Of a DNA stretch of 35,958 bases, positions 2,040 through 28,900 are shown piece by piece. Both the position numbers and the translations under genes were made by a program. The notes under the pieces are model-generated. The model was not told the DNA's origin. It saw nothing but the letters and a program-made list of their open reading frames with translations, and searched no databases. The stretch lies in contig JAKSKY010000015.1 in NCBI GenBank assembly GCA_024401515.1, positions 1 through 35,958 of the forward strand, written 5' to 3'. Source of the stretch: Paludibacteraceae bacterium (GTDB lineage Bacteria; Bacteroidota; Bacteroidia; Bacteroidales; Paludibacteraceae). How positions within the stretch are numbered: position 1 is the first letter of the stretch; each line of letters begins with the position of its first letter.

Positions 2040-2053
2040 TTTAATCAAATCAT

Positions 2054-2085
2054 AAACTGGGGCAGCGCTCCTGCCCCAGTTTCAT
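2054..2085 (+). terminator. Intrinsic terminator after the T9SS repeat protein
   Basis: The 12-bp perfect stem aaactggggcag / ctgccccagttt has a 5-nt loop (cgctc) and starts 15 bp after the stop codon. The T-run after it is short, so termination may be partial, with some read-through into the OmpA-family gene. Confidence 0.7.
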
Positions 2086-2109
2086 CTGACGCAATTTCAA
2101 TTACACAAA

Positions 2110-7578: not shown

Positions 7579-7587
7579 ATCGTCTAA

Positions 7588-7995
7588 TTATTTAACACAG
7601 AAACCCTGATTCTCCGGCTTCACATATTTAGGCAACAACCACTTCGCCAAGAAATAGGCAGCCAAGGCGCCCAAGGCGTCGGACAACCAATCGAACCAAT
7701 CTCCTGTACGGGGCGGAAAGAAATTCTCCTGTAACAATTCAATCAAACCACCATAAACGACGGGATATAAAACTCCCCAAAGGCGCATCTTCGCATCTTG
7801 GAAAGTATATCTTTGACGATACAATTCAAAGCATACCACTCCCGCCAATGCGAAGTACATCAAGAAGTGGACCAACTTGTCCAAACCCTCAAACTGGATT
7901 TGAGGCATATCAGGCACGGAGCGTATAATACTCACATACAAAATGGCAAGCGACAAAACAATCGACATACCATAAACTCTAAAAAAACGCATCAT
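7588..7995 (-). CDS. VanZ-like small membrane protein (copy 1)
   Basis: This 135-residue protein has about four hydrophobic helices. It carries the VanZ-family core: DKLVHFLMYFALAG, then YGGLIELLQENFFPPRTGDWFDWLSDALGA. The family is named after the teicoplanin-resistance protein VanZ, but most members are of unknown function and there is no van cluster here. Its ATG overlaps the stop of the upstream paralogue by 4 bp (ATGA), which indicates translational coupling. The GT2 gene follows after 9 bp. Confidence 0.85.
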   Translation of the reverse strand: MMRFFRVYGMSIVLSLAILYVSIIRSVPDMPQIQFEGLDKLVHFLMYFALAGVVCFELYRQRYTFQDAKMRLWGVLYPVVYGGLIELLQENFFPPRTGDWFDWLSDALGALAAYFLAKWLLPKYVKPENQGFCVK

Positions 7996-8465
7996 TTATT
8001 ACGAATATTTTTTAAAAATTTCAAAATCAGATCCACTAGTCGAGGGGCACAAAGCGCCGCCACCCCAAACCCGATGGCGCAACCCAACGCATCCGCCAAC
8101 CAATCGGTCCACTCCGCGGATCGAGGCGGAAAGAAATTTTGCTGAATCAGTTCTATCAAGCCGCCATAAAGAATAGGGATCAGCAAAGCCATCACCCACA
8201 TTCTTTTCGTCCGAAAGGAGGAAGTCAATTTAGCGAGAAGCGTCTCCAAAGCCAAAGAGAACGAGAGGGCGCCGAAAACAATCAAATGCGCCATATAATC
8301 CCGCAAATCACGATAACTCATCACCCAATCGTCTCCGTCATAGAAAATTTCACACTGCGTCTCCTCATCAATCACGGAAGGGACGACAGGTGCGGTGCAA
8401 TAGTAGAAAATCAATGCGGCAATGCCGAGGGAAAAAAGATATCTACTCACCAAAAACGACTTCAT
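7992..8465 (-). CDS. VanZ-like small membrane protein (copy 2)
   Basis: The chosen start MKSFLVSRYLF (8465) gives 157 residues. The frame stays open to 8564, but that would run through the divergent promoter and the trpS start. The C-terminal part, YGGLIELIQQNFFPPRSAEWTDWLADALG, closely matches the neighbouring copy, so the two genes are tandem paralogues. This copy has a longer extracytoplasmic loop (about residues 30-55, with CEIFYDGDDW). It is the first gene of the operon, and its probable -7 box is the left-facing half of the palindrome at 8501-8516. Confidence 0.83.
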   Translation of the reverse strand: MKSFLVSRYLFSLGIAALIFYYCTAPVVPSVIDEETQCEIFYDGDDWVMSYRDLRDYMAHLIVFGALSFSLALETLLAKLTSSFRTKRMWVMALLIPILYGGLIELIQQNFFPPRSAEWTDWLADALGCAIGFGVAALCAPRLVDLILKFLKNIRNK

Positions 8466-8500
8466 ATAACGCTTGAATAAATAAAATCGCAAAAATTTAT

Positions 8501-8516
8501 TACCTTTGCAAAGGTA
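8501..8516. promoter_or_regulatory. Palindromic divergent promoter: back-to-back -7 boxes
   Basis: The sequence tacctttgcaaaggta is its own reverse complement. Read rightward it gives TACCTTTG (8501-8508), 33 bp before the trpS ATG. Read leftward it gives TACCTTTG (8516-8509), 43 bp before the VanZ-like ATG at 8465. Both match the Bacteroidota -7 consensus TAnnTTTG. No convincing -33 boxes at standard spacing were found. Confidence 0.7.
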
Positions 8517-8541
8517 TAAAAATATTAGAAAAGAAAATACA

Positions 8542-9531
8542 ATGAAAACTGTAGTCAGCGGCATCCGTTCTACCGGTAACCTTCACCTAGGTAACTATTA
8601 CGGTGCATTGAAGAACTTCATACGCATGCAAGAGAACAACAACTGTTTCTTCTTCATCGCAGATTATCACTCTCTCACCACTCATCCAGATCCGAACATC
8701 CTCTATCCAAACGTAAAAAGCGTTTTGACTGAGTATTTGGCTTGTGGTTTGGATCCTGAAAAATCAGCCATCTTTATCCAAAGCGACGTTCCTGAAGTGG
8801 TGGAGTTGTACCTTATGCTCAACATGCACGCCTACTTGGGCGAGTTGACCAAGACCGTATCCTTCAAGGACAAGGCAAGAAAGAATCCTGAGAATGTCAA
8901 TGCGGGATTGCTTACCTACCCTACTTTGATGGCGGCCGATATCCTCATCCACAATGCGGACCAAGTGCCTGTCGGGAAGGATCAATTGCAACACTTGGAG
9001 ATGACAAGAAACTTCGCTAAGCGTTTCAACAACTTCTACAAAGTGGAATATTTCAAGGAGCCTATCGCCTACAGCGACGGTACCGAACCTATCAAGATTC
9101 CTGGATTGGACGGAAGCGGTAAGATGGGTAAGAGCGAAGGAAACTGCATATATTTGGCAGACGACGCCAAGACCATCGAGAAGAAGGTGAAGAAAGCGTT
9201 GACCGACCAAGGTCCAACTGAGATGAACTCAGTGAAACCTGACTGCATCGAGAACCTATTCACTATCATGAAGGTGGTATCCTCTCCTGACACCGTAGCC
9301 TTCTTCGAGGAGAAATGGAACACTTGCGAGATCCGTTACGGAGATTTGAAGAAGCAATTGGCAGCCGACATCATCGCGGCAACTGAGCCAATCCGTGAGC
9401 AAATCGCCTACATCGACGCTCATCCGGAGATTCTTCACAACGCCATTAGCCGCGGCCGCGACATCGCCCGCGAGAGCGCTCAGAAGACCATCCGTGACGT
9501 TAGGGAAATCATGGGATTCAGAAGTTTCTAA
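8542..9531 (+). CDS. trpS: Tryptophanyl-tRNA synthetase
   Basis: This class I aminoacyl-tRNA synthetase charges tRNA-Trp in the cytoplasm. The start at 8542 (MKTVVSGIRSTGNLHLGNYYG) gives 329 residues, the usual length. The frame extends upstream only through the promoter. The HIGH-type motif is HLGN (15-18) and the KMSKS-type motif is KMGKS (194-198) within GLDGSGKMGKSEGN. The gene is transcribed alone from the divergent promoter and closed by a terminator. Confidence 0.97.
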   Translation: MKTVVSGIRSTGNLHLGNYYGALKNFIRMQENNNCFFFIADYHSLTTHPDPNILYPNVKSVLTEYLACGLDPEKSAIFIQSDVPEVVELYLMLNMHAYLGELTKTVSFKDKARKNPENVNAGLLTYPTLMAADILIHNADQVPVGKDQLQHLEMTRNFAKRFNNFYKVEYFKEPIAYSDGTEPIKIPGLDGSGKMGKSEGNCIYLADDAKTIEKKVKKALTDQGPTEMNSVKPDCIENLFTIMKVVSSPDTVAFFEEKWNTCEIRYGDLKKQLAADIIAATEPIREQIAYIDAHPEILHNAISRGRDIARESAQKTIRDVREIMGFRSF

Positions 9532-9548: not shown

Positions 9549-9583
9549 AAAGCCAAGTATTCTAATGAATACCTGGCTTTTTT
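9549..9583. terminator. Probably bidirectional terminator between trpS and the GT4 gene
   Basis: The stem aaagccaagtattc / gaatacctggcttt (14 bp with one G-T pair, loop taat) is followed by TTTCTTT on the plus strand and by TTTCTTGTTT on the minus strand. It can therefore end trpS and also transcription arriving from the glycan locus. The rest of the gap up to 9735 shows no gene or clear signal. Confidence 0.85.
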
Positions 9584-9735: not shown

Positions 9736-10932
9736 TCATGTGGGATTTTGCAAAGATTCACACAAAGTCTTCCACTTACCCAATGTGATCCGTAAATCAT
9801 ATCTAACCAAATTATCCTTTGCATGGGTTGCCACAGAAGCCCTAAGCGAATCGTTAGACATCAATTTTTTCAAGGTTTCAACCATTCCGTTCATCGACTG
9901 AACGATAAAACCTGTTTCACCATCATCTATAAAATCAAGCAATGTAGGGAAATGTTCCGACTTCAGTCCAACCACAACCACACCATTCTGCTGTGCCTCC
10001 AATATGGTCATTGGGAAGCCTTCGAACCTCGAGGTCATCATGAACAAAGAAGCGCTTCTATAATAAGAAATAGGGTTTTGCCTACCCTCGAAACGTATAT
10101 TGTTAAGTTTGTAATCCTTTGCGATCTTTTCGTAAACGATTCTATCCGGTCCATCTCCGACAACCACGAGCTTCCAGCCGGACACCTCCGCCTCCCCTTC
10201 CAACATCTTCCAGACTTTCAGAGCCGACGTGAGGCGTTTCGACGTCTCATCCAATCTTGACACAATTAAGACTATTTTCTCTTTCGTAGCCGCATCAGTC
10301 GAGGAATTCAAAGAAACTGGATTCGCCACATTAGTAATCGAATCGAGCGGGAAACCCGAATATTCTCCAAATCTCTCTTCCAACTTCTTGGATAAACAAA
10401 CCACTTTATCAACGCCCAATGTCATAGTGACATATTTTCTTCCGACAATCTTCCTCAGAAAAGACATAGGCACAATACGTAAAAGCATTTGTGAGAAGAT
10501 GACCTTGACAGAATCCAATGACACACCGCATAGCCACATTTTCTTACAAAAAAAAGAGAGATCCTGTTTTACCAGTTCATATCCCGGACAACTATGATAG
10601 ATGAAAACGTGTTTTATTTTCGGGCAGGATTTCTCCCTGATATTCACAAGAGCCGGGAACACGGATTTTGCCGTCTGCTTCGACATTACATTATTCAAAA
10701 TAACGTCGATATCATAATCGCTTATAACATTCGCCAACTCAGGTTCGCAATTATCCAAATTCACACGCGTCATATTCAATGATGCCGCATTCTCACAGTC
10801 CCCTCGAAAGAAAACACTATGACAATTCCAACCGAATTCTTTCCTAAAAGCCTCGGAAAGAATAGATACTACGGTTTCCACTCCGCCAGACATCGGCAAA
10901 GGAGGATTGTCTAACAAAAAGAGGACATTCAT
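9736..10932 (-). CDS. Family 4 glycosyltransferase (GT-B fold)
   Basis: This 398-residue protein starts with MNVLFLLDNPPLPMSGGVETVV, the glycine-rich N-terminal loop of GT4 retaining transferases. The second Rossmann half has KIVLIVSRLD (~230), VVVGDGPDR and the donor-binding EX7E-type segment FEGFPMTILEAQQNG. No signal peptide or membrane segment is evident, so it should act on the cytoplasmic face of the membrane during assembly of a lipid-linked glycan. It lies 17 bp downstream of the YfhO-like gene in the same direction, so the two are probably one operon. The sugar is unknown. Confidence 0.9.
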   Translation of the reverse strand: MNVLFLLDNPPLPMSGGVETVVSILSEAFRKEFGWNCHSVFFRGDCENAASLNMTRVNLDNCEPELANVISDYDIDVILNNVMSKQTAKSVFPALVNIREKSCPKIKHVFIYHSCPGYELVKQDLSFFCKKMWLCGVSLDSVKVIFSQMLLRIVPMSFLRKIVGRKYVTMTLGVDKVVCLSKKLEERFGEYSGFPLDSITNVANPVSLNSSTDAATKEKIVLIVSRLDETSKRLTSALKVWKMLEGEAEVSGWKLVVVGDGPDRIVYEKIAKDYKLNNIRFEGRQNPISYYRSASLFMMTSRFEGFPMTILEAQQNGVVVVGLKSEHFPTLLDFIDDGETGFIVQSMNGMVETLKKLMSNDSLRASVATHAKDNLVRYDLRITLGKWKTLCESLQNPT

Positions 10933-10949: not shown

Positions 10950-13520
10950 TTATTTATAACGGAGAGAATTAGGAGTCTGATTGTTATTATCCGAAGCAAC
11001 TACAATTCCTTTCTGCGTCTCTCTTCGTCTAAAGCACAAGACGATAGATCCCAATATAAATAGATACATCACAATCGTACAAATGGTAGCGATGACATCA
11101 CCTTTTACAATACTATCCGGATCGAATTCAAAACGGATAGTATGTTCACCGGCTGGGATATTCAACGCCCTCAACATATAATCCACTCTAAAATGCTCCT
11201 TATACTCGCCATCAATATAGGCTTTCCATCCATAAGGATAATAAATTTCAGAGAAGACTGCCAATCCATCTTGAGAAGAGTTTGACTTATAATCTATATA
11301 TTCAGGAGTATACTTGGTCAACTCAATGGAAGACAATGAATCCTTATAGAAAGTTTTTCCATTCACATACGTTTCGAACTGCTTGTCTAGCACAGCCACA
11401 TCACGCAAATTCTCCGTCGCCAAAGCATCACACTCCTCATTGGCATTCTGTACGCACTTAACGTTTGAAACGAACCAAGCATTTCCCATCGCATGCGGAT
11501 TCTGAATGGCAACCTCCTCCTTGGTTTGCAAAGGAACAACAAAATACTTGGCGTTGAGCATATTCAAGACAGGGAACAAAGAATCGCCGTCACATAGTTC
11601 CAATCTGCCACCTGTAGATGAGAGTGCGGAGAACAAAGGAGAGAACTCCGGCGCAATATGCTGATCGATCAAATCCTGATAACGGCGAAGCTTAGCGGCA
11701 CTATATCCTCCAATAGACTTGAAGTAGTAAGAAGTACGAGCCTCGTTAAAGGTATTCGACGCAAGATTCAACACTCTAAAATGGGTAGAATCCCGCAACA
11801 TCTGCTCTTCATAAGGTTTCTTCTTGAAATAAGATTTGAGACTCTTCTCAGGAGAGAATGCGGAGTCATTCATATATCTTTTATCCACATACCACAAATC
11901 CGCCAAAACCAAGACGCCCAAAAGAGCCGCGAAATATTCTAGCTTAATTTTCTTTGCAGTGACGAAAAGCCACGTCAACGCTCCAGACAAAAGAACAAAG
12001 CCCAAGGAGCGCCAACAATCATAGTAAAAGAGGGATCCCCTTTGTTCCACAATAGCGGAAGAGAGCCAATCAGGATATTGTGAAATGGTCCTCTCGTCCA
12101 TCGGAGAGGAGAAATCGAAGAAGATTACGCCCGTAACAAGCAATAAGAGGCATAAACCGCCTGTTATTAGCGTCGCATTACGGATAGAGTTCTTCAAAGA
12201 ATCCACATTCATAGATCCATCAGTAACCCTTTTCAGCGCAAGGAATCCTAGCAAAGGCATCGTAATCTCAGCAATAATCAAGATGGAAGAGACTGCTCTA
12301 AACTTATTATACATAGGTATAACAGAGAAGAACAACTTCGTTAGAGGCATAAAATTGTGTCCCCACGAGAGCATGATTGACAAAATCGTAACGCCAAGCA
12401 ACGCCCATTTATATGGACCTTCGACAATAAGCAGTCCCAAGATAAACAAGAAACAAACAACAGCTCCCATATAAACCGGTCCGGAAGTGAATGGTTGATC
12501 ACCCCAATAGGTTGGCGCATTCTGACAAAATTGCTTTGCGGTCTTAGTATCCACGCCGTTCTTCTTCATGGTCTGATACAAATCCGAATCCTCTCCGACA
12601 TTATAGTTTGACGAACCACCCATATAGTTAGGGACAAGGAAAGTAAAGGTTTCACCTATTCCATAACTCCAAGCTGTGGCGTAGTCCAAGTCCAAACCTT
12701 TCGTCTTGTTCTTAGCATCCGACTCCTTCGTCAAATCTGAATGTCCGCCACGCATGGTCTCGGAAGTATATTCCATATTGGCGAATGTCAGAGAAGACTC
12801 CGTACCGACACCTATAAGGAAAGCACCGACAAACAATGCGGTCGAAATACCAAACTCTTTCCACAACTTACTTTTATAATGTTTCCACAACTCGGCCAAA
12901 AAACAGAAACCAATGATGAAACAATAATAATAAGCCATTTGAGGGTGAGGAACAAAACCCACAGAAACGAAAAACATAGTCAAACAGACGCCTAACTTTT
13001 TCCGCCCATTAAAAATCAAGTAAAAACCTGCGATGACAATTGAGAACAAAGCCAATGTCACTGTCTTGGAATTGTGGCTCGCACCGATAATAATAAAAAA
13101 GTAGGAAGAAAAAGCGATAGCGATCGCACCGACCGCAGACAACCATACATTCACATTAAACGCCAACAACAATACAAAGAATCCCAAAGCGTACAAAAAC
13201 ACCATCACAAACGCATTGGAATAATTCGCACCATAATGGGTCAACCAATTCACAGGATACTTTAACTCACGAGAGAAAGTGTTTCCTCCACCTATCTGAT
13301 AGTTCGGCATACCGGAAAACATCGACCCTGTCCACCATGACGAATTTCCTGTTTCCGCATTGTACTGTTCCACTTCATGATACGATCCTCTCCAAGAAAG
13401 ATTATCGTTTGCGATAATTGTTTTCCCATCAAATGTAGGCGACATATAAACAGCTGCAATCAGAGCGAATAAAGCCACACAAAGCAAGTACGGCCATGTT
13501 TTTTTCAATAAAGAATTCAT
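10950..13520 (-). CDS. YfhO-family polytopic membrane protein (probable GT-C type glycan enzyme)
   Basis: The chosen start MNSLLKKTWPYLLCVALF (13520) gives 856 residues, because the hydrophobic N-terminus begins there. The protein has about a dozen transmembrane segments and several extracytoplasmic stretches, including LSWRGSYHEVEQYNAETGNSSWW after the first helix and a C-terminal soluble region with YPYGWKAYIDGEY. It ends in a last helix and a basic tail. YfhO proteins (Pfam YfhO) are linked in Gram-positive bacteria to glycosylation of teichoic acids using lipid-linked sugars. In Bacteroidota the role is not established. Its place between a LicD-type gene and a GT4 supports a role in surface glycan modification. 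A 209-bp gap (13521-13729) precedes it, with no exact -7 box found. Confidence 0.85.
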   Translation of the reverse strand: MNSLLKKTWPYLLCVALFALIAAVYMSPTFDGKTIIANDNLSWRGSYHEVEQYNAETGNSSWWTGSMFSGMPNYQIGGGNTFSRELKYPVNWLTHYGANYSNAFVMVFLYALGFFVLLLAFNVNVWLSAVGAIAIAFSSYFFIIIGASHNSKTVTLALFSIVIAGFYLIFNGRKKLGVCLTMFFVSVGFVPHPQMAYYYCFIIGFCFLAELWKHYKSKLWKEFGISTALFVGAFLIGVGTESSLTFANMEYTSETMRGGHSDLTKESDAKNKTKGLDLDYATAWSYGIGETFTFLVPNYMGGSSNYNVGEDSDLYQTMKKNGVDTKTAKQFCQNAPTYWGDQPFTSGPVYMGAVVCFLFILGLLIVEGPYKWALLGVTILSIMLSWGHNFMPLTKLFFSVIPMYNKFRAVSSILIIAEITMPLLGFLALKRVTDGSMNVDSLKNSIRNATLITGGLCLLLLVTGVIFFDFSSPMDERTISQYPDWLSSAIVEQRGSLFYYDCWRSLGFVLLSGALTWLFVTAKKIKLEYFAALLGVLVLADLWYVDKRYMNDSAFSPEKSLKSYFKKKPYEEQMLRDSTHFRVLNLASNTFNEARTSYYFKSIGGYSAAKLRRYQDLIDQHIAPEFSPLFSALSSTGGRLELCDGDSLFPVLNMLNAKYFVVPLQTKEEVAIQNPHAMGNAWFVSNVKCVQNANEECDALATENLRDVAVLDKQFETYVNGKTFYKDSLSSIELTKYTPEYIDYKSNSSQDGLAVFSEIYYPYGWKAYIDGEYKEHFRVDYMLRALNIPAGEHTIRFEFDPDSIVKGDVIATICTIVMYLFILGSIVLCFRRRETQKGIVVASDNNNQTPNSLRYK

Positions 13521-13729
13521 ATAATTTAATTTCTGTGCAAAAGAACCAACCACGTCCAAAGAAAAGAAGCGTCCAGTTCTTCTACTATTATTGTCTTTTA
13601 TCTATTTATTCCACTTAAACACCTTTGTCAATATTCTTCTACGGCACACCCATCATAACACCCTTGTCTTTTTCTTTTCGACATCACTTGTGGGCATGGG
13701 GAACTGGCGTAAAAGAAACTTCCTTTGCA

Positions 13730-14566
13730 CTACAATTGAACATCTTTTTTATTCAACAACGCATATATCGCACTTGGTTTCCTTCGCTCAGTTGATGGTA
13801 ATTCCCAATAATTTCCATAGACTCTTTTCAAAAAAGAATCAGGGTCGGAAGGTGCGAAAAACTTACAATTCTCAAACTCCAGCTCCTTTAATGGGAACGT
13901 TTCATCCTTAGGATAGACGCCTCCATATACAGAGACCTCCCCGCTAGCACCGTAATACGATTTATCACCAAACGCACAGATCAACGACAATAATGATTTA
14001 TGGAAATAATAAGACAAGGGATACAAAAAATAGCACACGATATTTTTCATATTCACCTGTCTTGGATTATGTAAGAATCCATATGCGAAATATATACGGC
14101 GCAATAGATATTTCAGCACACCTTTGGGAGCATTCGGGAACGACTGGGCCTTGAAGAGATCAACGAATACACCTTTATTGTATTTCAACTTGAAGGAATC
14201 ATGTTCTTGGATAACCAAGGATTGATTATCTCTCAATCTAATAAAATCACGGCACAGCATAGAATCAGGATCCGTTTCACCCGTCTGCACAAAAATCCAA
14301 TCAGGCAACAATTTGGCGCAGGACAAGCGGAATTTTTCGAAATCATCCTCATGGATAAAAACATCGAGGTCATCATCCCAAGGGACAAAGCCTTTATGTC
14401 TCACAGCCCCCAACAACGTCCCATACGCTATCCAATAACGAATTCCATTTTCACGGCACACCTTATCCAGTTCCCTTAACATATCCAACATACGCAACTG
14501 CACAGACCTCAAAACCGTACCCGTACCGTTGTATTGAGAGAAATCCTCCATACTATAACTTATCAT
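13730..14566 (-). CDS. LicD-family transferase (copy 1)
   Basis: This 278-residue protein has the LicD signature YGTLLGAVRHKG (48-59) followed by FVPWDDDLDVF, with the acidic cluster DDDLD (64-68) expected to bind metal. LicD enzymes belong to the nucleotidyltransferase fold. The well-studied members move phosphocholine from CDP-choline onto surface sugars. No choline uptake or kinase genes (licA/licB/licC) are nearby; instead a phosphonate operon is directly upstream, so a CMP-phosphonate donor is a reasonable inference. ATG codons at 14566 and 14551 are both possible starts. It seems to have its own promoter (14699-14728), giving a leader of about 130 nt. Confidence 0.88.
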   Translation of the reverse strand: MISYSMEDFSQYNGTGTVLRSVQLRMLDMLRELDKVCRENGIRYWIAYGTLLGAVRHKGFVPWDDDLDVFIHEDDFEKFRLSCAKLLPDWIFVQTGETDPDSMLCRDFIRLRDNQSLVIQEHDSFKLKYNKGVFVDLFKAQSFPNAPKGVLKYLLRRIYFAYGFLHNPRQVNMKNIVCYFLYPLSYYFHKSLLSLICAFGDKSYYGASGEVSVYGGVYPKDETFPLKELEFENCKFFAPSDPDSFLKRVYGNYWELPSTERRKPSAIYALLNKKDVQL

Positions 14567-14698
14567 AAATAAAATTAGCGAAGCGGGGATAAAAGCTCTT
14601 TTAAGCGAAAGCCACTTCTATATTATAGGATTATTAGCAACTATGCGGCCTCGAGTTTCCTGTAATTGGTTACACGTGAGAAACAAACAACCCAAAGA

Positions 14699-14728
14699 CA
14701 AAGGTATGAAATTTCTATACATTAACAA
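14699..14728 (-). promoter_or_regulatory. Candidate promoter for LicD copy 1
   Basis: On the minus strand the -7 box TACCTTTG (14706-14699) matches TAnnTTTG exactly. A TTG (14728-14726), part of a -33-type element, sits upstream with 19-bp spacing, which is within the Bacteroidota range. Confidence 0.6.
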
Positions 14729-14800
14729 GCGGTAATAAGCAAAAAAGATAGCCGTCTCCCATCAAGGAGAGGGGCTCAAGATGGCGAAAAATCGCACTCA

Positions 14801-14851
14801 CACAAACAAAAGATTCACTCGGAATATCAATTAGAGTCCCAAGTGAATCTT
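14801..14851 (-). terminator. Candidate terminator of the phosphonate operon
   Basis: The perfect 10-bp inverted repeat aagattcact (14810-14819) / agtgaatctt (14842-14851) encloses a 22-nt loop. Read leftward, the stem is followed by TTTTGTTTG. The long loop lowers confidence, but it starts 16 bp after the aepY stop codon. Confidence 0.55.
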
Positions 14852-14866
14852 AGTTTGAAATAACTA

Positions 14867-15991
14867 TTATTGCAAAGTTTTTAAATATTCAACGAAGTTG
14901 ATTTTATTTTGCAAAGCGGTAGTTGTTGGTCTTCCTAAATCTTCACGGGCGCCGATTGAGCATTTTACTTCAATAAGCATTAATTCCTCACAATCCTTCG
15001 CAGTTTTCAGCGCCTGATCCAACGCTTCGAAAGAATCAACACAAACAGCCTTTCCGTATCCGCAAGCATTCGCAATAGCGACCAAATCTATTTTCCCCGC
15101 CACAGTCGGTTGACCACCCACCGTCTCATGTGCGGAATTGTTTATGACAATATGGACAAGATTCTTAGGCGCATTCGCTCCTATCACAGCCATGGCACCC
15201 ATATGCATCAACACAGCGCCGTCACCATCAACGCACCATATTTTCGTGTTTGGCTTATTGATAGCAACTCCCAAGGCGATAGAAGAACTATGTCCCATAG
15301 AACCGACCGTCAGAAAATCATATTTGTGGCTTTGATGTTTCGCCTCACGAATCTCAAAAAGTTCGCGGCTCGCTTTACCTGTTGTGGAGACAATCGGATC
15401 TTCGCCAGAGACCTCCACGACATGGCTGATAATCTCCTCCCGTAACATTGTATGCTGGTTTTTATATTCCACAGTGCCATCATAAGAGAGGGAGCCCTTT
15501 CTCACGACAAACGCAACATTCTTTCCCATAGAAAGCAACTTTCTAAAGTCATCCATCGCATTTCGAACCTCCTCATCGGAAGTCTCTTTGCCAATAAAGA
15601 AAGAAGCGATTCCCATATCATCAAGCAATTTCACCGTCACCTCACCTTGATAAATATGTTGAGGTTCATCATGGACACCCGGTTCACCTCTCCATCCGAC
15701 CACGAAAACCATCGGAATGGCATAAACCTTATCGTTCAAAAGGGAAGCGACTGGATTGATGATATTACCCTCTCCCGAATTCTGCATATAAACAACAGGA
15801 ACCTTACCTGTCGCAAGATGATAGCCAGCAGCAAGCGCCGTACAATTACCTTCATTCGCCGCTATGACATGATGTTTCGGATCGATTCCATACTTATTCA
15901 TCAAGAAATTGCACAAAGCCTTCAACTGTGAATCTGGGACACCGGCATAAAAGTCAGAGCCAATTATCTCCAATAAATTTTCTACCTTCAT
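14867..15991 (-). CDS. aepY: Phosphonopyruvate decarboxylase
   Basis: This thiamine-diphosphate enzyme makes phosphonoacetaldehyde and CO2 from phosphonopyruvate. The decarboxylation pulls the unfavourable PEP mutase reaction forward. Its 374 residues match the family. The N-terminal Pyr domain has the catalytic Glu47 in AANEGNC. The C-terminal PP domain has VDGDGAVLMH (254-263) and INNSAHETVGGQPT (283-296), the GDG...NN motif that binds ThDP and magnesium. It is the last gene of the three-gene phosphonate operon, and its ATG overlaps the stop of the dehydrogenase gene by 4 bp. Sulfopyruvate decarboxylase is the nearest alternative, but the neighbouring PEP mutase settles the assignment. Confidence 0.95.
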   Translation of the reverse strand: MKVENLLEIIGSDFYAGVPDSQLKALCNFLMNKYGIDPKHHVIAANEGNCTALAAGYHLATGKVPVVYMQNSGEGNIINPVASLLNDKVYAIPMVFVVGWRGEPGVHDEPQHIYQGEVTVKLLDDMGIASFFIGKETSDEEVRNAMDDFRKLLSMGKNVAFVVRKGSLSYDGTVEYKNQHTMLREEIISHVVEVSGEDPIVSTTGKASRELFEIREAKHQSHKYDFLTVGSMGHSSSIALGVAINKPNTKIWCVDGDGAVLMHMGAMAVIGANAPKNLVHIVINNSAHETVGGQPTVAGKIDLVAIANACGYGKAVCVDSFEALDQALKTAKDCEELMLIEVKCSIGAREDLGRPTTTALQNKINFVEYLKTLQ

Positions 15992-17115
15992 TTTTCGTCA
16001 AATATTTTACGGTAAAGAACATTGATCGTTTGTTCGTCAAGTCTTACGGGGTTATTTTTCAATCTTACGAGGTTGACAGATCTTGCCAACAATTCAAAAT
16101 CACTTTCGTCATCGACCACAGGAGTCCGCAAATTCAAGTCTGACACTATTCTCTGGAATCTTTCAACTGCGGATATAGCATCTACACATCCCATTGCGGA
16201 TGCAAGGTCAAGGAACATCTTATCCAAATAATCCTTCCCCCTTGAATCCATCGACAAAGATGTGTTTTCGACCATAAAACGCCATAAAACGGAGACACAT
16301 AAAGCGGCTGCATGTCCATGTGAAATGTCATATAGTTTTGTCATCTTATAACACATGGCGTGCCCCGCTGTCGTTTGGGTTATATTGATTGCCTGTCCCG
16401 CCAGATTCGCCGCTTTCAGCATAGCCGAATTCCCGGGCTCAGCATTTTCAAGATATGAATCAATATATTCCAATATTAAGCCAATAGCGGCCTTTGAATA
16501 TTCCTTGCTTTCATCCGTAGAATTCACTGACCAGAACGATTCCACCGAATGGCAGAAAGCGTCGAGCATTGTCGCCTTACGCTGGTATTCAGGCAAATAT
16601 GCTAGCATAGAAGCATCGAACAAAACAGCCTGCGGAATACAACTATAGTCGGTGACGGACTGTTTCTCCCCTTTGTAATAGATGACCGCATATCTTGTCG
16701 CTTCACTTCCCGTACCCGCTGTCGTAGGAGCGGCAAGGAAAGGAATATCATTGGGCACAATAGGCTCTTGAAGATAGTTGGCACCTTCAGGCATGTTTGA
16801 GTATAGTTTAACACACTTGGCGACATCCATCGCAGAACCGCCACCTATGGCAAAGATGGAATCGCAATTACCCTTTCTGAAAGCATCCACACCTTTGACA
16901 ACAGACTCATAATCCGGATTAGGCTGGAACTCTGAAAAATATATAGGTTGTATTTTCCCTTGAGCATTCAATTCGTCAAGGACCCCTTTCAGCCTAAATT
17001 TTTGAAACGAAGATCCACAGATAATAAAAATCTTTTTCAAGCCATTTCTCTGGATATAATCCACTAATGACTCATAATTATTATCGGACGATAGAATGAC
17101 TTGCCGTAATTTCAT
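15988..17115 (-). CDS. Group III metal-dependent alcohol dehydrogenase, probable phosphonoacetaldehyde reductase
   Basis: This 375-residue protein has the NAD(P)-binding GGGSAMD (91-97), [12 protein letters not shown] (129-140) and the four metal ligands of iron-type dehydrogenases: Asp185 and His189 in DAFCHS, His252 in TAGHAMCY and His266 in SHGHAAAL. Members of this family (PhpC, FomC and DhpG types) reduce phosphonoacetaldehyde to 2-hydroxyethylphosphonate. It overlaps pepM upstream and aepY downstream by 4 bp each, so all three are translated as one unit and its substrate is very probably the product of AepY. It occupies the place of the 2-aminoethylphosphonate aminotransferase found in many surface-phosphonate loci. 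The exact substrate is inferred from context, not from a diagnostic residue. Confidence 0.88.
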
Positions 17116-18410
17116 TTAGTGCCAGGAATTAATTCCAATATTTCTTTCACACCCATACACATATCATTCGCCTCCAAAGATCGGTGATGGGCAAGGATCG
17201 ACTTCGCAGTATTTACCATTGCAGGATATGCGCTACGCAACATATGGTTCGCATAGATGACAACATTAACGCCCCAACTTGCCAATTCCTCCTCCGTAAT
17301 TTGGTTATATGTCGTAGGAACCACGAAAAGAGGCACAGAGGCATGTCTCTCCCTAAACTTCAAGCAAAACTCCTTGATATCCTCTCCAGTCTTATTCTTG
17401 GAATGAATCATAATTCCGTCAGCGCCAGCCTCCACATAAGCAAAACAACGTTGTAGGGCATCCTCAATTGTTTTGCCTGCAATAAGACTCTCACAACGAG
17501 CCACTACCATAAAGTCGTTGGCGATTTGCGCCCTTTTCCCCGCTTTAATCTTTTCCGAGAAAGATTCAATAGAATCCTGATTCTGAGACACTTCCGTTCC
17601 AAAAAGAGAATTTTTCTTCAATCCTATTTTATCCTCAATGATCACAGCGGAAACGCCTAATCTTTCCAAAGTTCTTACAGTAAAAACAAAATGCTCAATT
17701 TTTCCACCCGTGTCTCCATCGAAAATCACAGGTTTAGTCGTACACTCCAATGCATCGTTAAGACCATGAAGACGAGTTGTTAAATCAACAGCTTCAATAT
17801 CCGGTTTACCCTTGCTGGTGGAATCTGTGAGTGAACTTGCCCACATACCATCAAACTCCTCCGTCTTATTATTGACCTTAATCTTGGTTTTTTCGATTAT
17901 CAAACCAGTCAAGCCCGAATGGCTCTCCATGATACGGACAATAGGTTTAGCCGCGATCAAGCGACGTAACATTTTTTGTCGAATCTCAGGCGTAGTACCT
18001 ATCTCACGCACTTCAGCATTCAACGCCGTTGAGGAAATGCCTGGAGTATAGGGTATATCTATCACCTTTCCGCCCCATTTCGAGATACAATCAATCACAC
18101 GCTGTCTCGTTTCCTTTTGGACACCATGCAACCAATCGTCTCCATGAAGCACATAATCGGGTTTTAATTTTTCAAGATTTGGGACATAATCTAAGGTAGT
18201 TTGAGGAACAACCTTGGCTACTCCCTTTATGTTAGACACTATCTCCGCGCGTTGCTCATAGGTCAAATAAGGCAATCTTTTATAACTTGCTATTGCTTCG
18301 TCCGTAAGAACACCAACAGTCACTTCACCAAGTTTCATCGCCTCATGAATGATATTTAAATGCCCATGGTGAATTAAATCGGCACTCATACCACAATAAA
18401 CGGTAGCCAT
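17112..18410 (-). CDS. pepM: PEP phosphomutase with fused N-terminal cytidylyltransferase-type domain
   Basis: PEP mutase converts phosphoenolpyruvate to phosphonopyruvate, the entry step of C-P bond formation. The C-terminal ~280 residues carry DGDTGG (231-236), which binds magnesium, and the diagnostic EDKX5NS motif ([10 protein letters not shown], 259-268), which separates true mutases from isocitrate-lyase-like relatives. Residues 1-~135 form a separate nucleotidyltransferase domain: [14 protein letters not shown] with the HxGH motif (14-17) and PGISST (123-128), as in glycerol-3-phosphate cytidylyltransferases. The total of 432 residues compares with roughly 290-300 for single-domain mutases. 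The fusion is an expected variant in polysaccharide-type loci. The NT domain probably activates the final phosphonate with CTP, which is inference. The downstream dehydrogenase gene overlaps by 4 bp. The 122-bp upstream gap shows no exact -7 box. Confidence 0.95.
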
Positions 18411-18532
18411 ATGATAAACAATTAAATTTAACTTTCTATTGTCAACAAATGCGTAAAATTACACAAATTATCTCAATCGCCCAAATTTGGCGAAGAGCCA
18501 TGTCCGCCGCACATATCTAGCGTACACCTACA

Positions 18533-19555
18533 TCATAACACATTGAAATGAGGATCAACATAGCGCCTGATCTTCTCTCGCATTGACTCGACCGTCTCCC
18601 ACTCCGTATTCGTCTCCGAACTGTAACGGAAACCGAAAGGCACCACCTTGGCTTGGTGATGTTTGATGTAATCCTCTTTTTTCCAACAATAGGAGACAGA
18701 TGGAAGTATCGCGTAACAATCGCCCAAATCAATGGTATCCATCGCCTCCGCCTCAATGATCATCTCCTCATGAAGCTTCTCTCCAGGCCGGATTCCCACT
18801 TCCTCCTGTTTCAAATTAGGAGCGATGGCGGTAGCCACATCACAGATCTTATAGGAAGGTATTTTAGGAACAAATATCTCACCACCCAAATGGTGGCCTA
18901 GGGCAAACATCACGAGGGCAACACCCTCCTCCAATGTGATATTGAATCGAGTCATTCTCATATCGGTAATCGGCAATGAGGTGGCTCCTTGTTCACACAT
19001 GCTCATAAAAAGAGGGATCACAGAGCCCCTGGAACCCATCACATTACCATATCTCACAACGGAGAAACGGATATCTTTGCTGCCCCTGATATTATTGGCA
19101 GCGGTAAAAAGTTTATCGGAAGTCAGTTTAGTCGCTCCATAAAGGCTGATCGGTGCGCAAGCCTTATCAGTCGAAAGGGCAATCACATCCTTCACATGCT
19201 GGATCATGGCGGCGTCTATCACATTCATAGCGCCATGCACATTCGTCTTAATACACTCCTCCGGATTGTATTCGGCGGTATCCACCTGTTTCATAGCGGC
19301 GGCATGGATAATCACATCCACCCCCTCACAGGCGCGGATAAGACGTTCCTTGTCACGGACATCACCTACAATATATCGCAACTGAGGGTATTTACTCTCC
19401 GGCCAAGCCTGCTTCATATCGAATTGCTTCAACTCTCCACGGGAAAAGACGATAAGCCTCTTCACGTTGGGATAGTCACGGAGAATCACCTCCACGAACT
19501 TCCTTCCAAATGAACCAGTGCCACCAGTAATTAAAACGACCTTACCATTAAGCAT
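18533..19555 (-). CDS. pseB: UDP-N-acetylglucosamine 4,6-dehydratase (inverting), PseB-like
   Basis: This 340-residue short-chain dehydrogenase/reductase has the TGGTGSFG NAD(P)-binding loop (10-17), STDKA with Thr129/Asp130/Lys131 and the catalytic YGATK (Tyr139, Lys143). The Tyr favours PseB over the WbjB/CapE type, which lacks it at this place. PseB makes the 4-keto-6-deoxy-L-arabino sugar that starts pseudaminic acid synthesis or feeds other 6-deoxy-amino sugars. No PseC, PseH, PseG, PseI or PseF is in the window, so the end sugar is open. It lies in the leftward glycan locus, 122 bp before pepM and 148 bp after LicD copy 2. A candidate promoter is at 19615-19648. Confidence 0.88.
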   Translation of the reverse strand: MLNGKVVLITGGTGSFGRKFVEVILRDYPNVKRLIVFSRGELKQFDMKQAWPESKYPQLRYIVGDVRDKERLIRACEGVDVIIHAAAMKQVDTAEYNPEECIKTNVHGAMNVIDAAMIQHVKDVIALSTDKACAPISLYGATKLTSDKLFTAANNIRGSKDIRFSVVRYGNVMGSRGSVIPLFMSMCEQGATSLPITDMRMTRFNITLEEGVALVMFALGHHLGGEIFVPKIPSYKICDVATAIAPNLKQEEVGIRPGEKLHEEMIIEAEAMDTIDLGDCYAILPSVSYCWKKEDYIKHHQAKVVPFGFRYSSETNTEWETVESMREKIRRYVDPHFNVL

Positions 19556-19614
19556 ATCGATGTAGTATTATATTTTCTTTTTCGTCACTTCCAAATTCCA
19601 TGGAATATGCCATG

Positions 19615-19648
19615 CAAAATTATACTAAATTTAGGAGAAAATGACAAA
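19615..19648 (-). promoter_or_regulatory. Candidate promoter for the PseB-like gene
   Basis: On the minus strand TAATTTTG (19622-19615) matches TAnnTTTG. TTTG (19648-19645) lies upstream at 22-bp spacing, slightly longer than usual. The leader would be about 55 nt. Confidence 0.5.
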
Positions 19649-19669
19649 TATTAGCAAACAAATGGGTTA

Positions 19670-19687
19670 CGGGAAGGTTGTTTCCCG
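19670..19687 (-). terminator. Weak hairpin after LicD copy 2
   Basis: The 6-bp perfect stem cgggaa / ttcccg has a 6-nt loop and lies 16 bp after the LicD stop codon. It has no T-run directly after it, so at best it is a weak or factor-assisted terminator. Confidence 0.3.
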
Positions 19688-19703
19688 CTTCAACCACAAA
19701 TGA

Positions 19704-20546
19704 TTAGCCATTCAATTCCTTTCGAGCCTCCTCGATGCTTTTCCTTTGCTCCAAATCGACGTAGTAGTGATCATGCACACTGACGCGCTGTTCCACCGGA
19801 GGCAGCTGCATATAATCCCCATAGCACATGGTCAAATAGGCGTCATACGAAGCCAATATGGAGATATTACCATCTTCAAATGGTTGCTCCACAATGTGGT
19901 CAAACCACTCCTTGGGGAACAAAGAGCGTTCGAAAGGCAATAATGAACGATAGTACAAAAGAGATGCTCCTTCAACTTTCTTCAGCCGCGCCTCTAATTC
20001 ATCCATTTTTCGGATCGCGCGCTTTCGCATCAATTGCCAATACTTATTTCTTCTCCAACGCTTAAAATCATGGAAACTGTGGATGTCGCTCCATCTATAA
20101 TCCTGGCAAGCATACCTATAATGGTCGAAAGCCTTGCTGTACTTCTTCTTCAACTTACGGCACTGCTCATTATCAGAAGCCTCGTCCAAAGGGAATATGT
20201 CGATGAATACACCCATCATATATGGATAGAGCCGCTCCTCCCAAAGGCTGCTATCCCTACGACAAAATTTGGCGAAAGGAAGATAATAGCCAGCATCATG
20301 ACGATCGATGATTTCATAACCGCCAAGCGACGCATCCTTCCGTAAGGAGAGGAACTTTTCATACGCCTCACGTTTCATATAAACATCCACATCATCATCC
20401 CACGGAATACAACCATGGTGGCGAACGGCTCCCAACATTGTTCCATACGCCGCCACATATTGAATATCATGGCTTTTACAAAACTGAGCAAACGCCCGGA
20501 AGGTTTGTTTCAGTATCTCCTTATATTTTTCCTGATTATACTCCAT
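19704..20546 (-). CDS. LicD-family transferase (copy 2)
   Basis: This 280-residue protein has YGTMLGAVRHHG (34-45), then CIPWDDDVDVYMK with the acidic cluster DDDVD (50-54). The fold and catalytic motif match copy 1 at 13730-14566, but outside the motif block the sequences differ greatly, so this is a distant paralogue with perhaps a different acceptor. The C-terminal half is rich in Lys/Arg and Tyr/Trp. It should transfer a phospho- or phosphono-alcohol from a CMP-linked donor to a glycan at the cytoplasmic face. Together with copy 1 it brackets the phosphonate genes and pseB. A -7 box lies 30 bp upstream. Confidence 0.87.
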   Translation of the reverse strand: MEYNQEKYKEILKQTFRAFAQFCKSHDIQYVAAYGTMLGAVRHHGCIPWDDDVDVYMKREAYEKFLSLRKDASLGGYEIIDRHDAGYYLPFAKFCRRDSSLWEERLYPYMMGVFIDIFPLDEASDNEQCRKLKKKYSKAFDHYRYACQDYRWSDIHSFHDFKRWRRNKYWQLMRKRAIRKMDELEARLKKVEGASLLYYRSLLPFERSLFPKEWFDHIVEQPFEDGNISILASYDAYLTMCYGDYMQLPPVEQRVSVHDHYYVDLEQRKSIEEARKELNG

Positions 20547-20575: not shown

Positions 20576-20583
20576 CAAACATA
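20576..20583 (-). promoter_or_regulatory. Candidate -7 box for LicD copy 2
   Basis: The minus strand reads TATGTTTG (20583-20576), an exact TAnnTTTG match 30 bp before the ATG. TTTG candidates upstream are at 23-bp spacing, which is not ideal. Confidence 0.5.
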
Positions 20584-20616
20584 CTAAAAAAATGACACAA
20601 TAAGGGCAAATGGCAC

Positions 20617-25947: not shown

Positions 25948-28900
25948 CTATTTCCTTATCAATGAAAAATGGCCCTTAAAGGTTCTTTTTATTTCACCGA
26001 CATAGATCACATACCAATAGTCTGTACTTGGGAGCGGAAGTCCATTGTAGGTTCCATCCCAACCTTCGAACTCATTATCTATCTCTACCAATAGTTTTCC
26101 AAAACGATCGTAGATGCTGACGGTATAGTAGTTGTAATAATTCAAATTCTCAACCACCCATAGATCATTCACACCGTCACCGTTCGGTGTCATCAACTCC
26201 GCAGGTTTGATCTGCACAGCCAAAGAGACTACCGAGTCTGATTGACAGCCCTTCGAATCCATCACCTTCACCAACATCGGTGCTGGCGAGAACTTAGTAG
26301 AATAGGTATTTTCCAACTGCCATGGCTCTGTTCGCCAAAAATACTGGTAACCTGGGGTTCCTCCGCTCACCTCCATCGTCAGCCTTTTAAATTCGTTATC
26401 GTAGTAAACCGTATCGATGCGTGGATTCGCCAGAACCGTGACATCCACCGTGAACGAATCCTCGCACACCTCGTCCGTCACGATCACCTTGTAGCTGATA
26501 TCCTCCACGCCCTTCATCCGTGGCGTACTCTCAGCATCGGAACTCAGATAGGTGGCTGGCTTCCAACTATAGTGCAACGTCTCGCAGCAGTTCGGTTTGA
26601 ACACGGCCGTTTCTCCCTCACAGATCTCGACGGACACCTGTTCCTCCAGTCCGAACTTCGCACGGGTATCTATCCTTAGCATGTGGATGGTATCATCCTT
26701 CAAGGTAGTCTCATCGGTATAGTAGCCGTCTCCTATATAGCTGTTGCCCCTCCACTCCACGTAATGGTCCGGACATGGATCCACGAACAACGTGTCGTAG
26801 GTAAAGACATGCAGACTCAAATGCAACAGACTATCGCAACCATAGATGGTCTGCATCATGAGTTCATGCGTATAGTCGCCCACATCCTTGTGAGTCAGGT
26901 TGAAGCCATGACGGGTGAAGTGTTCGTTCACCTTCACCGTATCAATTAGATAAGTGTCTTTAGTTTCGTGTACCACCAACTGCAACGTAACGATACTATC
27001 ACAGCCATGGATGCTCTTCAATTCATCCACATACGTACCAGCCACCGTATATGGTTTGCCTCCAAAGATATACTCTTCTCCGTCGCAGATTGTATCGTGT
27101 ACAGTTATATGGAACGTATCATGAACAGTCAAATACAACGTCACAATACTATCGCAACCATAAATGGTTTTTAGTTCGTCAACATAGCTACCTGCCTTTG
27201 TATAAGGTTTACCTCCGAAGATATATTCATCTCCGTTACAGATTGTATCATAGACTGAGACGTGGAAAGTATCATGAACAGTCAAATGCAACGTCACGAT
27301 ACTATCACAACCATGGATGGTCTTCAGTTCATCTACATACGTACCTGCTTCTGTATAGCTATGGATTCCAAAGCGATAAGTTTCTCCATTACAAATTGTA
27401 TCCTTTACCGTCACATGGAAGGTGTCATTCACCGTAAGATGCAATGTCACAATACTATCACAGCCATGGATCGTCTTCAACTCATCCACATAGGTACCAG
27501 CCACCGTATATGGTTTGCCTCCAAAGATATACTCTTCTCCGTCGCAGATTGTATCGTGTACAGTTATATGGAACGTATCATGAACAGTCAAATACAACGT
27601 CACAATACTATCGCAACCATAAATGGTTTTTAGTTCGTCAACATAGCTACCTGCCTTTGTATAAGGTTTACCTCCGAAGATATATTCATCTCCGTTACAG
27701 ATTGTATCATAGACTGAGACGTGGAAAGTATCATGAACAGTCAAATGCAACGTCACGATACTATCACAACCATGGATGGTCTTCAGTTCATCTACATACG
27801 TACCTGCTTCTGTATAGCTATGGATTCCAAAGCGATAAGTTTCTCCATTACAAATTGTATCCTTTACCGTCACATGGAAGGTGTCATTCACCGTAAGATG
27901 CAATGTCACAATACTATCACAGCCATGGATCGTCTTCAACTCATCCACATAGGTACCAGCCACCGTATATGGTTTGCCTCCAAAGATATACTCTTCTCCG
28001 TCGCAGATTGTATCATATACAGTTATATGGAACGTATCATGCACAGTCAAATACAACGTCACAATGCTATCGCAACCATGGATGGTCTTTAGTTCGTCAA
28101 CATAGCTACCTGCCTTTGTATAAGGTTTGCCTCCGAAGATATATTCATCTCCGTTGCAGATTGTATCATAGACTGAAACGTGGGAAGTATCATGAACAGT
28201 CAAATGCAACGTCACAATACTATCGCAACCATGAATGGTCTTTAGTTCATCTACATACGTACCTGCTTCTGTATAGCTATGGATTCCAAAGCGATAAGTT
28301 TCTCCATTACAAATTGTATCCTTTACCGTCACATGGAAGGTGTCATTCACCGTAAGATGCAATGTCACAATACTATCACAGCCATGGATCGTCTTCAACT
28401 CATCCACATAGGTACCAGCCACCGTATATGGTTTGCCTCCAAAGATATACTCTTCTCCGTCGCAGATTGTATCGTGTACAGTTATATGGAAGGTATCATG
28501 CACAGTCAAATACAACGTCACAATGCTATCACAACCATAAATGGTTTTTAGTTCGTCAACATAGCTACCTGCCTTCGTGTAAGGTTTGCCTCCGAAGATA
28601 TATTCATCTCCGTTGCAAATAGTGTCATAAACAGATACATGGAAGGTATCGTTCACCGTCAAATGCAACGTCACAATACTATCGCAACCATGAATGGTCT
28701 TCAGTTCGTCTACATATTTGCCCGACTTTTTATAAGTCTTTCCGCCAAAGATGTATTGTTCTCCGTTACAGATGGTATCATAGACTGAGACGTGGAAGGT
28801 GTCCAACACAACCAATTCCAAGGTCACTATACTGTCTCGTCCTGTGACAGACTTCAACTCATCCACGTAGGTATCCGCTTCAGTCAATTTCTTTCCTCCA

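Follow-up and report, generated by a model that had tools for sequence, protein, structure and literature searches.

A predicted locus for the decoration of glycans with 2-hydroxyethylphosphonate in a Paludibacteraceae bacterium

Genes of the locus

The window analysed here is a stretch of 35,958 nucleotides from a Paludibacteraceae bacterium, one complete contig (JAKSKY010000015.1) of a 2.7 Mb draft genome that is 88% complete (GCA_024401515.1). It holds a gene cluster that probably encodes a module for decorating a glycan with 2-hydroxyethylphosphonate (HEP). All cluster genes lie on the minus strand in the order PbpC, LicDa, PseB, PepM, FeADH, Ppd, LicDb, YfhO and GT4 (Table 1), and their coordinates agree with those of a preliminary description of the window. 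That description had named a run of pepM, a group III dehydrogenase (the iron-type alcohol dehydrogenase FeADH) and aepY, together with two LicD-family genes, a pseB-like gene, and YfhO and GT4 genes. All are present, and the assemblage is far beyond chance. The 4-base overlaps described for the run are real at both junctions, PepM/FeADH and FeADH/Ppd, and gaps of 122 bases (PseB-PepM) and 300 bases (Ppd-LicDb) flank it.

Table 1 Features of the locus and its surroundings in the window
Feature	Position	Strand	Basis
Phosphoenolpyruvate (PEP) mutase with N-terminal Fom1-type cytidylyltransferase (CyTase) domain (PepM)	17112..18410	-	TIGR02320, 5x3d, motifs
Fe-type alcohol dehydrogenase (FeADH), predicted phosphonoacetaldehyde reductase	15988..17115	-	PF00465/PF25137
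Phosphonopyruvate decarboxylase (Ppd/AepY)	14867..15991	-	TIGR03297
LicDb, LicD family, predicted HEP phosphonyl transferase from CMP-HEP to glycan	13730..14566	-	PF04991 118.6 bits
LicDa, second LicD-family gene	19704..20546	-	PF04991 142.5 bits
PseB-type UDP-GlcNAc 4,6-dehydratase	18533..19555	-	TIGR03589 518 bits; 2gn4 E 3e-104
Membrane protein, YfhO-like, with start codon listed as TTG	10950..13559	-	PF09586 22.8 bits (below cut-off 28.5)
GT4 (family 4) glycosyltransferase	9736..10932	-	PF00534 91.7 bits
Promoter-like site, Bacteroidota-type (TTTG...TAnnTTTG), 5' of LicDa	20576..20610	-	consensus match
Promoter-like site, Bacteroidota-type, 5' of PseB and HEP cassette	19615..19648	-	consensus match
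Terminator-like hairpin (14 pairs) 3' of GT4, possible unit end	9549..9580	-	consensus match only
Terminator-like hairpin before pbpC	23002-22979	-	consensus match only

A PEP mutase with a fused cytidylyltransferase

PepM consists of a CyTase domain (residues 1-138) and a mutase domain (residues 148-431). The protein scores 416 bits against TIGR02320 (cut-off 320) and carries the mutase motif EDK-x5-NS at residue 259, while Ppd scores 456 bits against TIGR03297 (cut-off 312.5). By these curated family models PepM is identified as a PEP mutase and Ppd as a phosphonopyruvate decarboxylase.

The CyTase domain matches PF01467 with 58.6 bits (cut-off 21), and its HxGH motif is intact, reading HHGH. 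The closest solved structure is 5x3d (E 7e-58), an entry titled phosphoenolpyruvate phosphomutase, which we take to be the CyTase of Fom1 from Streptomyces. The window domain and Fom1 share 86 of 135 residues (63.7%). Excerpts from Rice et al. 2019 describe Fom1 as joining HEP and cytidine triphosphate (CTP) to give the cytidine monophosphate (CMP) conjugate CMP-HEP (PMC6697681). The closeness of the domain to Fom1 allows an activated donor to be predicted from the protein itself and not solely by analogy with LicD enzymes, and the CyTase domain is predicted with good confidence to turn HEP and CTP into CMP-HEP. The preliminary description had proposed CMP activation without noticing the fused domain, which now bears it out.

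The gene set of PepM, Ppd and FeADH likewise agrees with the HEP route proposed there. Gene context and gene fusion strongly suggest that FeADH reduces phosphonoacetaldehyde to HEP. In 18 of the 80 loci surveyed below Ppd is fused to FeADH, and one such fusion (L063) was verified by Pfam to hold both TPP-enzyme and Fe-ADH domains. Residues D185, H252 and H266 are invariant in 60 of 60 FeADH sequences, and position 189, a histidine in the window, is H in 23 and Q in 37; D185, H189, H252 and H266 are presumably the metal ligands. Two protein architectures were noted along the way. The Ppd-FeADH fusion of the Gastranaerophilales and their relatives (L055-L081) is a single protein of about 720 residues, and at L082 (12444-14267) an NTP_transf_3 domain is fused to Fe-ADH beside PepM and Ppd.

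HEP-type and AEP-type loci

Relatives of the PepM-CyTase fusion were surveyed in the best 80 of 129 loci, which were classed with gene profiles built from fixed seeds. A separate FeADH is present in 41 loci, the Ppd-FeADH fusion in 18, and a transaminase (AEPT) for 2-aminoethylphosphonate (AEP) in 12; the remaining nine, with neither gene in reach, were excluded from the HEP/AEP comparisons. For reference, the Bacteroides fragilis transaminase scores 522 bits against TIGR03301 (cut-off 361).

The CyTase motif was compared between these classes. HxGH is intact in all 59 FeADH loci; the script counted 58, and re-reading showed that locus L028 has two pepM genes, of which the FeADH-adjoining copy reads HHGH. 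The 12 AEPT loci read HPGL in eight cases and HQGH in four, the Bacillota ones. Within 6 kb, 11 of the 12 AEPT loci have a PntC-like nucleotidyltransferase, the sole miss being a short contig, versus two of 59 FeADH loci, where one hit reaches 34 bits and the other is fused to FeADH itself. Seventeen CyTase columns hold one residue in at least 90% of the FeADH loci and only rarely in the AEPT loci. The window matches at 17 of 17, Fom1 at 13 and the AEPT loci at 0-9, and among the nine loci with neither gene, L019 and L030 match at all 17 and the other seven at 1-9. The residues T72 and T101 occur in none of the 12 AEPT loci.

Two side observations concern the motif. L028, a Treponema contig, carries a HEP-type PepM and an AEP-like (HPGI) PepM together (2008-3273, 7323-8624). 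In L034, L038, L046, L050 and other AEP-type Bacteroidota loci the PepM-fused CyTase is without the second histidine (HPGL) and a separate PntC-like gene lies near; the CyTase domain of such loci is perhaps vestigial.

In the source genome (88% complete) no AEP transaminase exceeds the cut-off, the best match reaching 40 bits versus 361, and none of the 20 window proteins scanned matches PF12804 (PntC). The locus thus shows neither of the two marks of an AEP-type Pnt locus, AEPT and a PF12804 PntC. The evidence strongly favours HEP over AEP as the product.

LicD genes beside the HEP cassette

Both LicD proteins score above the PF04991 cut-off of 22.6 bits and show the WDDD-D motif in alignments, and the best fold match of the LicDb model is FKRP. 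We drew a sample of 300 genomes from the window's family, in which PepM has matches at E <= 0.001 in 105 genomes, mostly to the CyTase part alone. A full-length PepM-CyTase fusion occurs in 16 genomes, the window included, and a fragment in one (G233). Fifteen of the 16 fusion loci were examined with their flanks, the window being the sixteenth; some contigs are short, and the sample shares at least one genome with the 80-locus set (G027, which is L009). Eight of the 16 are FeADH-type; HxGH is intact in all eight, and LicD adjoins the cassette in seven (the exception is G050). One of the loci, G154, has an extra gene between Ppd and FeADH. The other eight are HPGL-type and have FeADH in none, AEPT in five, a PntC-like gene in seven and an adjacent LicD in one (G163). 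The difference in LicD adjacency, 7/8 versus 1/8, gives a Fisher p of 0.010.

In the 80-locus set, neighbours were counted within 300 bases on the same strand. Beside the 59 FeADH cassettes LicD makes up 17 of 77 neighbours, a count identical by LicD profile and by Pfam, and Glyphos_transf (TagF) 10 of 77; beside the 12 AEPT cassettes both are absent from the 14 neighbours, 11 of which are NTP_transf_3. In Arenibacter hampyeongensis a TagF-like protein is encoded beside the cassette (L042:13573-14763). By neighbour, LicD or TagF (27/77 versus 0/14) gives p 0.008, as a guide only since the neighbours are related and first neighbours were compared.

The gap between cassette and LicD is 300 bases in the window and at most 63 in the other FeADH-type family loci with an adjacent LicD. 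An N-terminal signature, ED[FL]..YN...LR..Q, rough and written post hoc, is found in 11 of the 63 LicDs of the loci studied, and all 11 stand beside a donor module (eight HEP, three other CyTase). The script flagged nine of them; L128 and L120, the two left unflagged, are short excerpts from the window and from G074, where the modules were seen directly. Since the signature is absent from 18 of 25 HEP-adjacent LicDs, HEP cassettes are accompanied by several kinds of LicD. The source genome also encodes a fusion of a LicD-like domain with CyTase, 384 residues long (L175:6320-7474, G000:C100).

The preliminary description had given weight to the pairing of LicD enzymes. LicD does adjoin the cassette in many genomes, including seven of the eight FeADH-type family loci, but the pairing is not conserved. 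LicDa and pseB have no counterpart at the corresponding site of the congener G027, and only the downstream gene, LicDb (13730-14566), recurs with the HEP cassette; paired LicD as a conserved trait was rejected on this ground.

A swap site between pbpC and yfhO

A pbpC orthologue with more than 70% identity is present in nine of 16 genus genomes. The region past it was examined in the eight others besides the window, of which the G159 contig stops before yfhO. G027 has the HEP cassette here, followed by LicD, GT4, a family 2 glycosyltransferase (GT2), an amine-oxidase-like flavoprotein and YfhO. At the same site G074 has a CyTase-Gfo/Idh fusion with a short-chain dehydrogenase/reductase (SDR), LicD, other genes and YfhO, and G091 an asparagine-synthase-CyTase fusion (AsnS-CyTase), LicD, GT4, GT2 and YfhO. 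The sites of G139, G159, G135 and G113 hold other sugar genes, NeuB among them in G139, and no LicD in the stretch examined. In sum, LicD with a CTP-using donor module occupies the site in four of the nine genomes including the window, with three kinds of module, HEP in two.

The alternative modules are of interest in themselves. In G091 the protein at L173:4331-5785, directly before LicD, has asparagine-synthase and CTP-transferase domains by Pfam; in G233 L198:7708-9183, also directly before LicD, is AsnS-CyTase-like by similar start and position only. It is possible that such a protein makes an unknown donor activated with cytidine diphosphate (CDP). The CyTase-Gfo/Idh fusion with SDR, assigned by Pfam domains near LicD in G074 (L170:14891-16941) and by similarity and position in G139 (L180:6872-8955), perhaps makes a CDP-polyol. 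G233 further has a lone CyTase of 151 residues without a mutase part (L198:11280-11735), near its AsnS-CyTase-like gene and LicD, which looks like the remnant of a replaced HEP cassette.

Spread of the cassette

The window PepM falls in a clade of 14 members (support 100/100) with Salinivirgaceae, Treponema, other Spirochaetota and Fibrobacter. Identities to the window were compared for ten of the 13 other members, the divergent L011, L028 and L048 being left out. PepM is 89-92% identical as protein and 73-80% as DNA in these ten, from which we conclude that transfer between phyla is likely and was not recent. Ppd is 77-87% identical (nine read) and FeADH 54-74%. PepM and FeADH thus differ widely in conservation, 89-92% against just 54-74%, in spite of their overlapping operon.

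Proposed biosynthesis and alternative readings

We propose the following pathway. PepM would rearrange PEP to phosphonopyruvate, and Ppd would decarboxylate this to phosphonoacetaldehyde, both steps being assigned through curated families over their cut-offs. FeADH would reduce the aldehyde to HEP, as suggested by context and gene fusion, and the CyTase domain of PepM would couple HEP with CTP to yield CMP-HEP, as its identity to Fom1 indicates. The full route from PEP to CMP-HEP is very likely encoded at the locus. LicDb, FKRP-like in its model, would then transfer the HEP group of CMP-HEP to a glycan hydroxyl, a role that linkage, swap site and fold make likely. GT4, YfhO and the sugar-nucleotide enzymes encoded nearby may assemble the acceptor glycan; linkage and fold point to a glycan as the acceptor. 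Transfer from CMP-HEP yields a phosphonate monoester and not a phosphodiester, so the HEP phosphodiester of the preliminary description gives way to a predicted end product glycan-O-P(O)(O-)-CH2CH2OH. We regard this account of the locus, a HEP glycan-decoration module, as probable as a whole.

A broader proposal is held more loosely, being close to evenly poised and leaning slightly to doubt. HEP decoration would be a distinct and widespread class of surface phosphonylation apart from AEP decoration, with its own activator in an intact Fom1-type CyTase on PepM, the AEP loci of Bacteroidota having lost the second histidine of HxGH and using a PntC-like stand-in. LicD/FKRP-like and TagF-like proteins, which are unrelated, would have been recruited as phosphonyltransferases, and within the genus the HEP cassette would be one among several interchangeable donor modules beside LicD at a fixed site.

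Several points weigh against these proposals. The case rests on sequence, fold and gene context. FeADH exceeds no curated NCBIfam cut-off; its score against TIGR03405 (PsrA) is 127 bits versus 424, and five homologues scanned from other FeADH-type loci, at 135-185 bits, are also below. The CyTase columns were picked on the same loci that they separate, and the HEP and AEP classes correspond in part to clades; even so, the four labels require 12 changes on the tree. Counted by locus, LicD adjacency in the 80-locus set (17/59 FeADH versus 0/12 AEPT) is not significant (Fisher p 0.057), and 42 of the 59 FeADH loci have no directly adjacent LicD, some contigs ending early. LicD is not co-inherited with PepM: compared with G027, LicDb is 35% and PepM 90% identical. 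The LicD-like gene at the G128 swap site is divergent, scoring 25.6 bits against a cut-off of 22.6, and stands without a recognised donor module. A TagF-like gene is found one gene past AEPT in three of the eight HPGL-type family loci (G190, G246 and G284), which means that TagF is not special to HEP. These TagF-like proteins beside AEPT (L191, L192, L195) may also serve CMP-AEP.

Some of these points bear on a first alternative, in which the LicDs draw on different CDP donors produced elsewhere and some other transferase attaches HEP. We consider it unlikely, although it is the alternative that survives best. The LicD-CyTase fusion elsewhere in the source genome and the G128 gene are in its favour, as are the congeners in which LicDs of this subgroup stand beside CyTase-Gfo/Idh or AsnS-CyTase modules, so that inheritance of LicDb along with a different donor is conceivable. 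Against this, LicD stands directly 3' of the cassette in seven of eight FeADH-type family loci, and every one of the 11 LicDs with the post hoc signature lies beside a donor module.

CMP-HEP might instead be made for the modification of a lipid, with LicD acting like the diacylglycerol cholinephosphotransferase Mf1 to give a phosphonolipid. At E <= 0.001 the two LicDs match a single NCBIfam model, NF045866, yet their scores of 83 and 90 bits are far under its cut-off of 225. GT4, PseB and YfhO-like genes adjoin, the TagF-like partners at other loci are members of a family of CDP-glycerol polymer transferases, and the best LicDb fold match is FKRP, all of which makes the lipid a distinctly improbable acceptor.

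The opening steps of fosfomycin synthesis also use a Fom1-type fusion, a Ppd and an alcohol dehydrogenase, so the cassette could in principle make a soluble phosphonate natural product with the glycan genes as bystanders. In the fosfomycin route CMP-HEP is methylated by Fom3. No radical S-adenosylmethionine or other tailoring enzyme of this route was found among the 20 window proteins scanned (the 1457-residue protein at 25948-30321 was not among them), a fosfomycin-like small molecule was rejected as first choice on this basis, and LicD or TagF stands at the cassette edge in many genomes; the chance of a soluble product appears slimmer still. That the product is AEP, a known phosphonate of Bacteroides fragilis according to excerpts from PMC6697681, and the dehydrogenase unrelated to phosphonate is hardly credible and was rejected, as no match in the source genome (88% complete) reaches the AEP transaminase cut-off, FeADH overlaps its neighbours by 4 bases at both ends and is fused to Ppd elsewhere, and AEPT loci carry a PntC-like gene (11/12) and HPGL (8/12).

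Relation to known systems

Returning to the HEP glycan-decoration module, among its closest known counterparts is the early fosfomycin pathway, in which Fom1 is a PepM-CyTase fusion, Fom2 the Ppd and FomC the alcohol dehydrogenase. The two share the same four predicted reactions to CMP-HEP, the same domain fusion and a CyTase 63.7% identical, but none of the later fosfomycin enzymes is among the 20 window proteins scanned, and the window has a transferase and glycan genes instead. In the LicC/LicD phosphocholine and FKRP (CDP-ribitol) systems a CDP-activated donor is moved to a glycan. The likeness extends to the fold that the LicDb model shares with FKRP, while the donor head group of the window locus would be a C-P phosphonate and the link hence a phosphonate monoester. 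Yu et al., in J Bacteriol in 2014, reportedly described phosphonoglycans of Glycomyces and Stackebrandtia with HEP on exopolysaccharide. There HEP is on a glycan in actinomycetes, whereas the window belongs to a gut-type Bacteroidota and has an adjacent LicD.

According to excerpts from Lockwood et al. 2022, HEP esters occur on marine polysaccharide, and pepM/aepY/phpC have choline-phosphotransferase-like neighbours (PMC9381506). HEP on polysaccharide is therefore not new as such; the preliminary description had expected a complete HEP version with paired LicD enzymes to be new or little described. In excerpts from Rice et al. 2019 phosphonates are proposed to be activated with nucleotidyl groups for surface tailoring, with LicD-like neighbours, AEP being the phosphonate studied (PMC6697681). 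As far as these excerpts go, the Pnt pathway resembles the window locus in nucleotidyl activation, LicD-like neighbours and the proposed surface target, and differs in using AEP, a PF12804 PntC and AEPT where the window has HEP, a fused PF01467 CyTase and FeADH. The terms 'alcohol dehydrogenase' and 'HXGH' have no occurrence in the main text of PMC6697681. The matches listed, which covered few subscription papers, included none on a HEP locus in Bacteroidota of the gut or rumen, on a HEP/AEP rule or on a CMP-HEP transferase.

The steps after phosphonate synthesis are termed enigmatic in excerpts from PMC6697681, and the loci described here name candidate CMP-phosphonate transferases from two unrelated enzyme families. 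They also point to a sequence rule by which producers of HEP and of AEP could be told apart, and locate the trait in several phyla of bacteria from gut and rumen. As conjecture, surface HEP groups may affect phages, grazers and host recognition.

Acceptor glycan and other features of the window

The PseB score lies above its cut-off of 408 bits, and the protein may supply a precursor sugar of the local glycan. A pseudaminate locus was rejected, as PseI has no match in the source genome (88% complete) and the best PseC match reaches 238 bits versus a cut-off of 423.5. The YfhO-like protein, though under its Pfam cut-off (Table 1), is a candidate membrane glycosyltransferase for the glycan.

The promoter-like sites follow the Bacteroidota-type consensus. 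Four are found in the whole window versus 1.17 expected, and three of 100 shuffles reach four. Terminator-like hairpins number 16 in the region versus 12.2 expected. The G+C content is 38-45% at 10.5-21 kb, compared with 44-51% leftward and 40-51% rightward, a dip against both flanks that is only weak evidence of acquisition. As regards carriage on plasmids or phages, none of the 21 plasmid records found with an E limit of 1e-60 reaches 60% identity, and one of them covers at least 80% of the query; both phage records (E limit 1e-30), unannotated and faecal, are likewise below 60% identity and cover at least 80% of the query.

Within the 1457-residue minus-strand gene mentioned above, two successive plus-strand open reading frames of exactly 150 residues each lie at 27444-28355. 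Their succession suggests a repeat of about 459 bases inside that gene.

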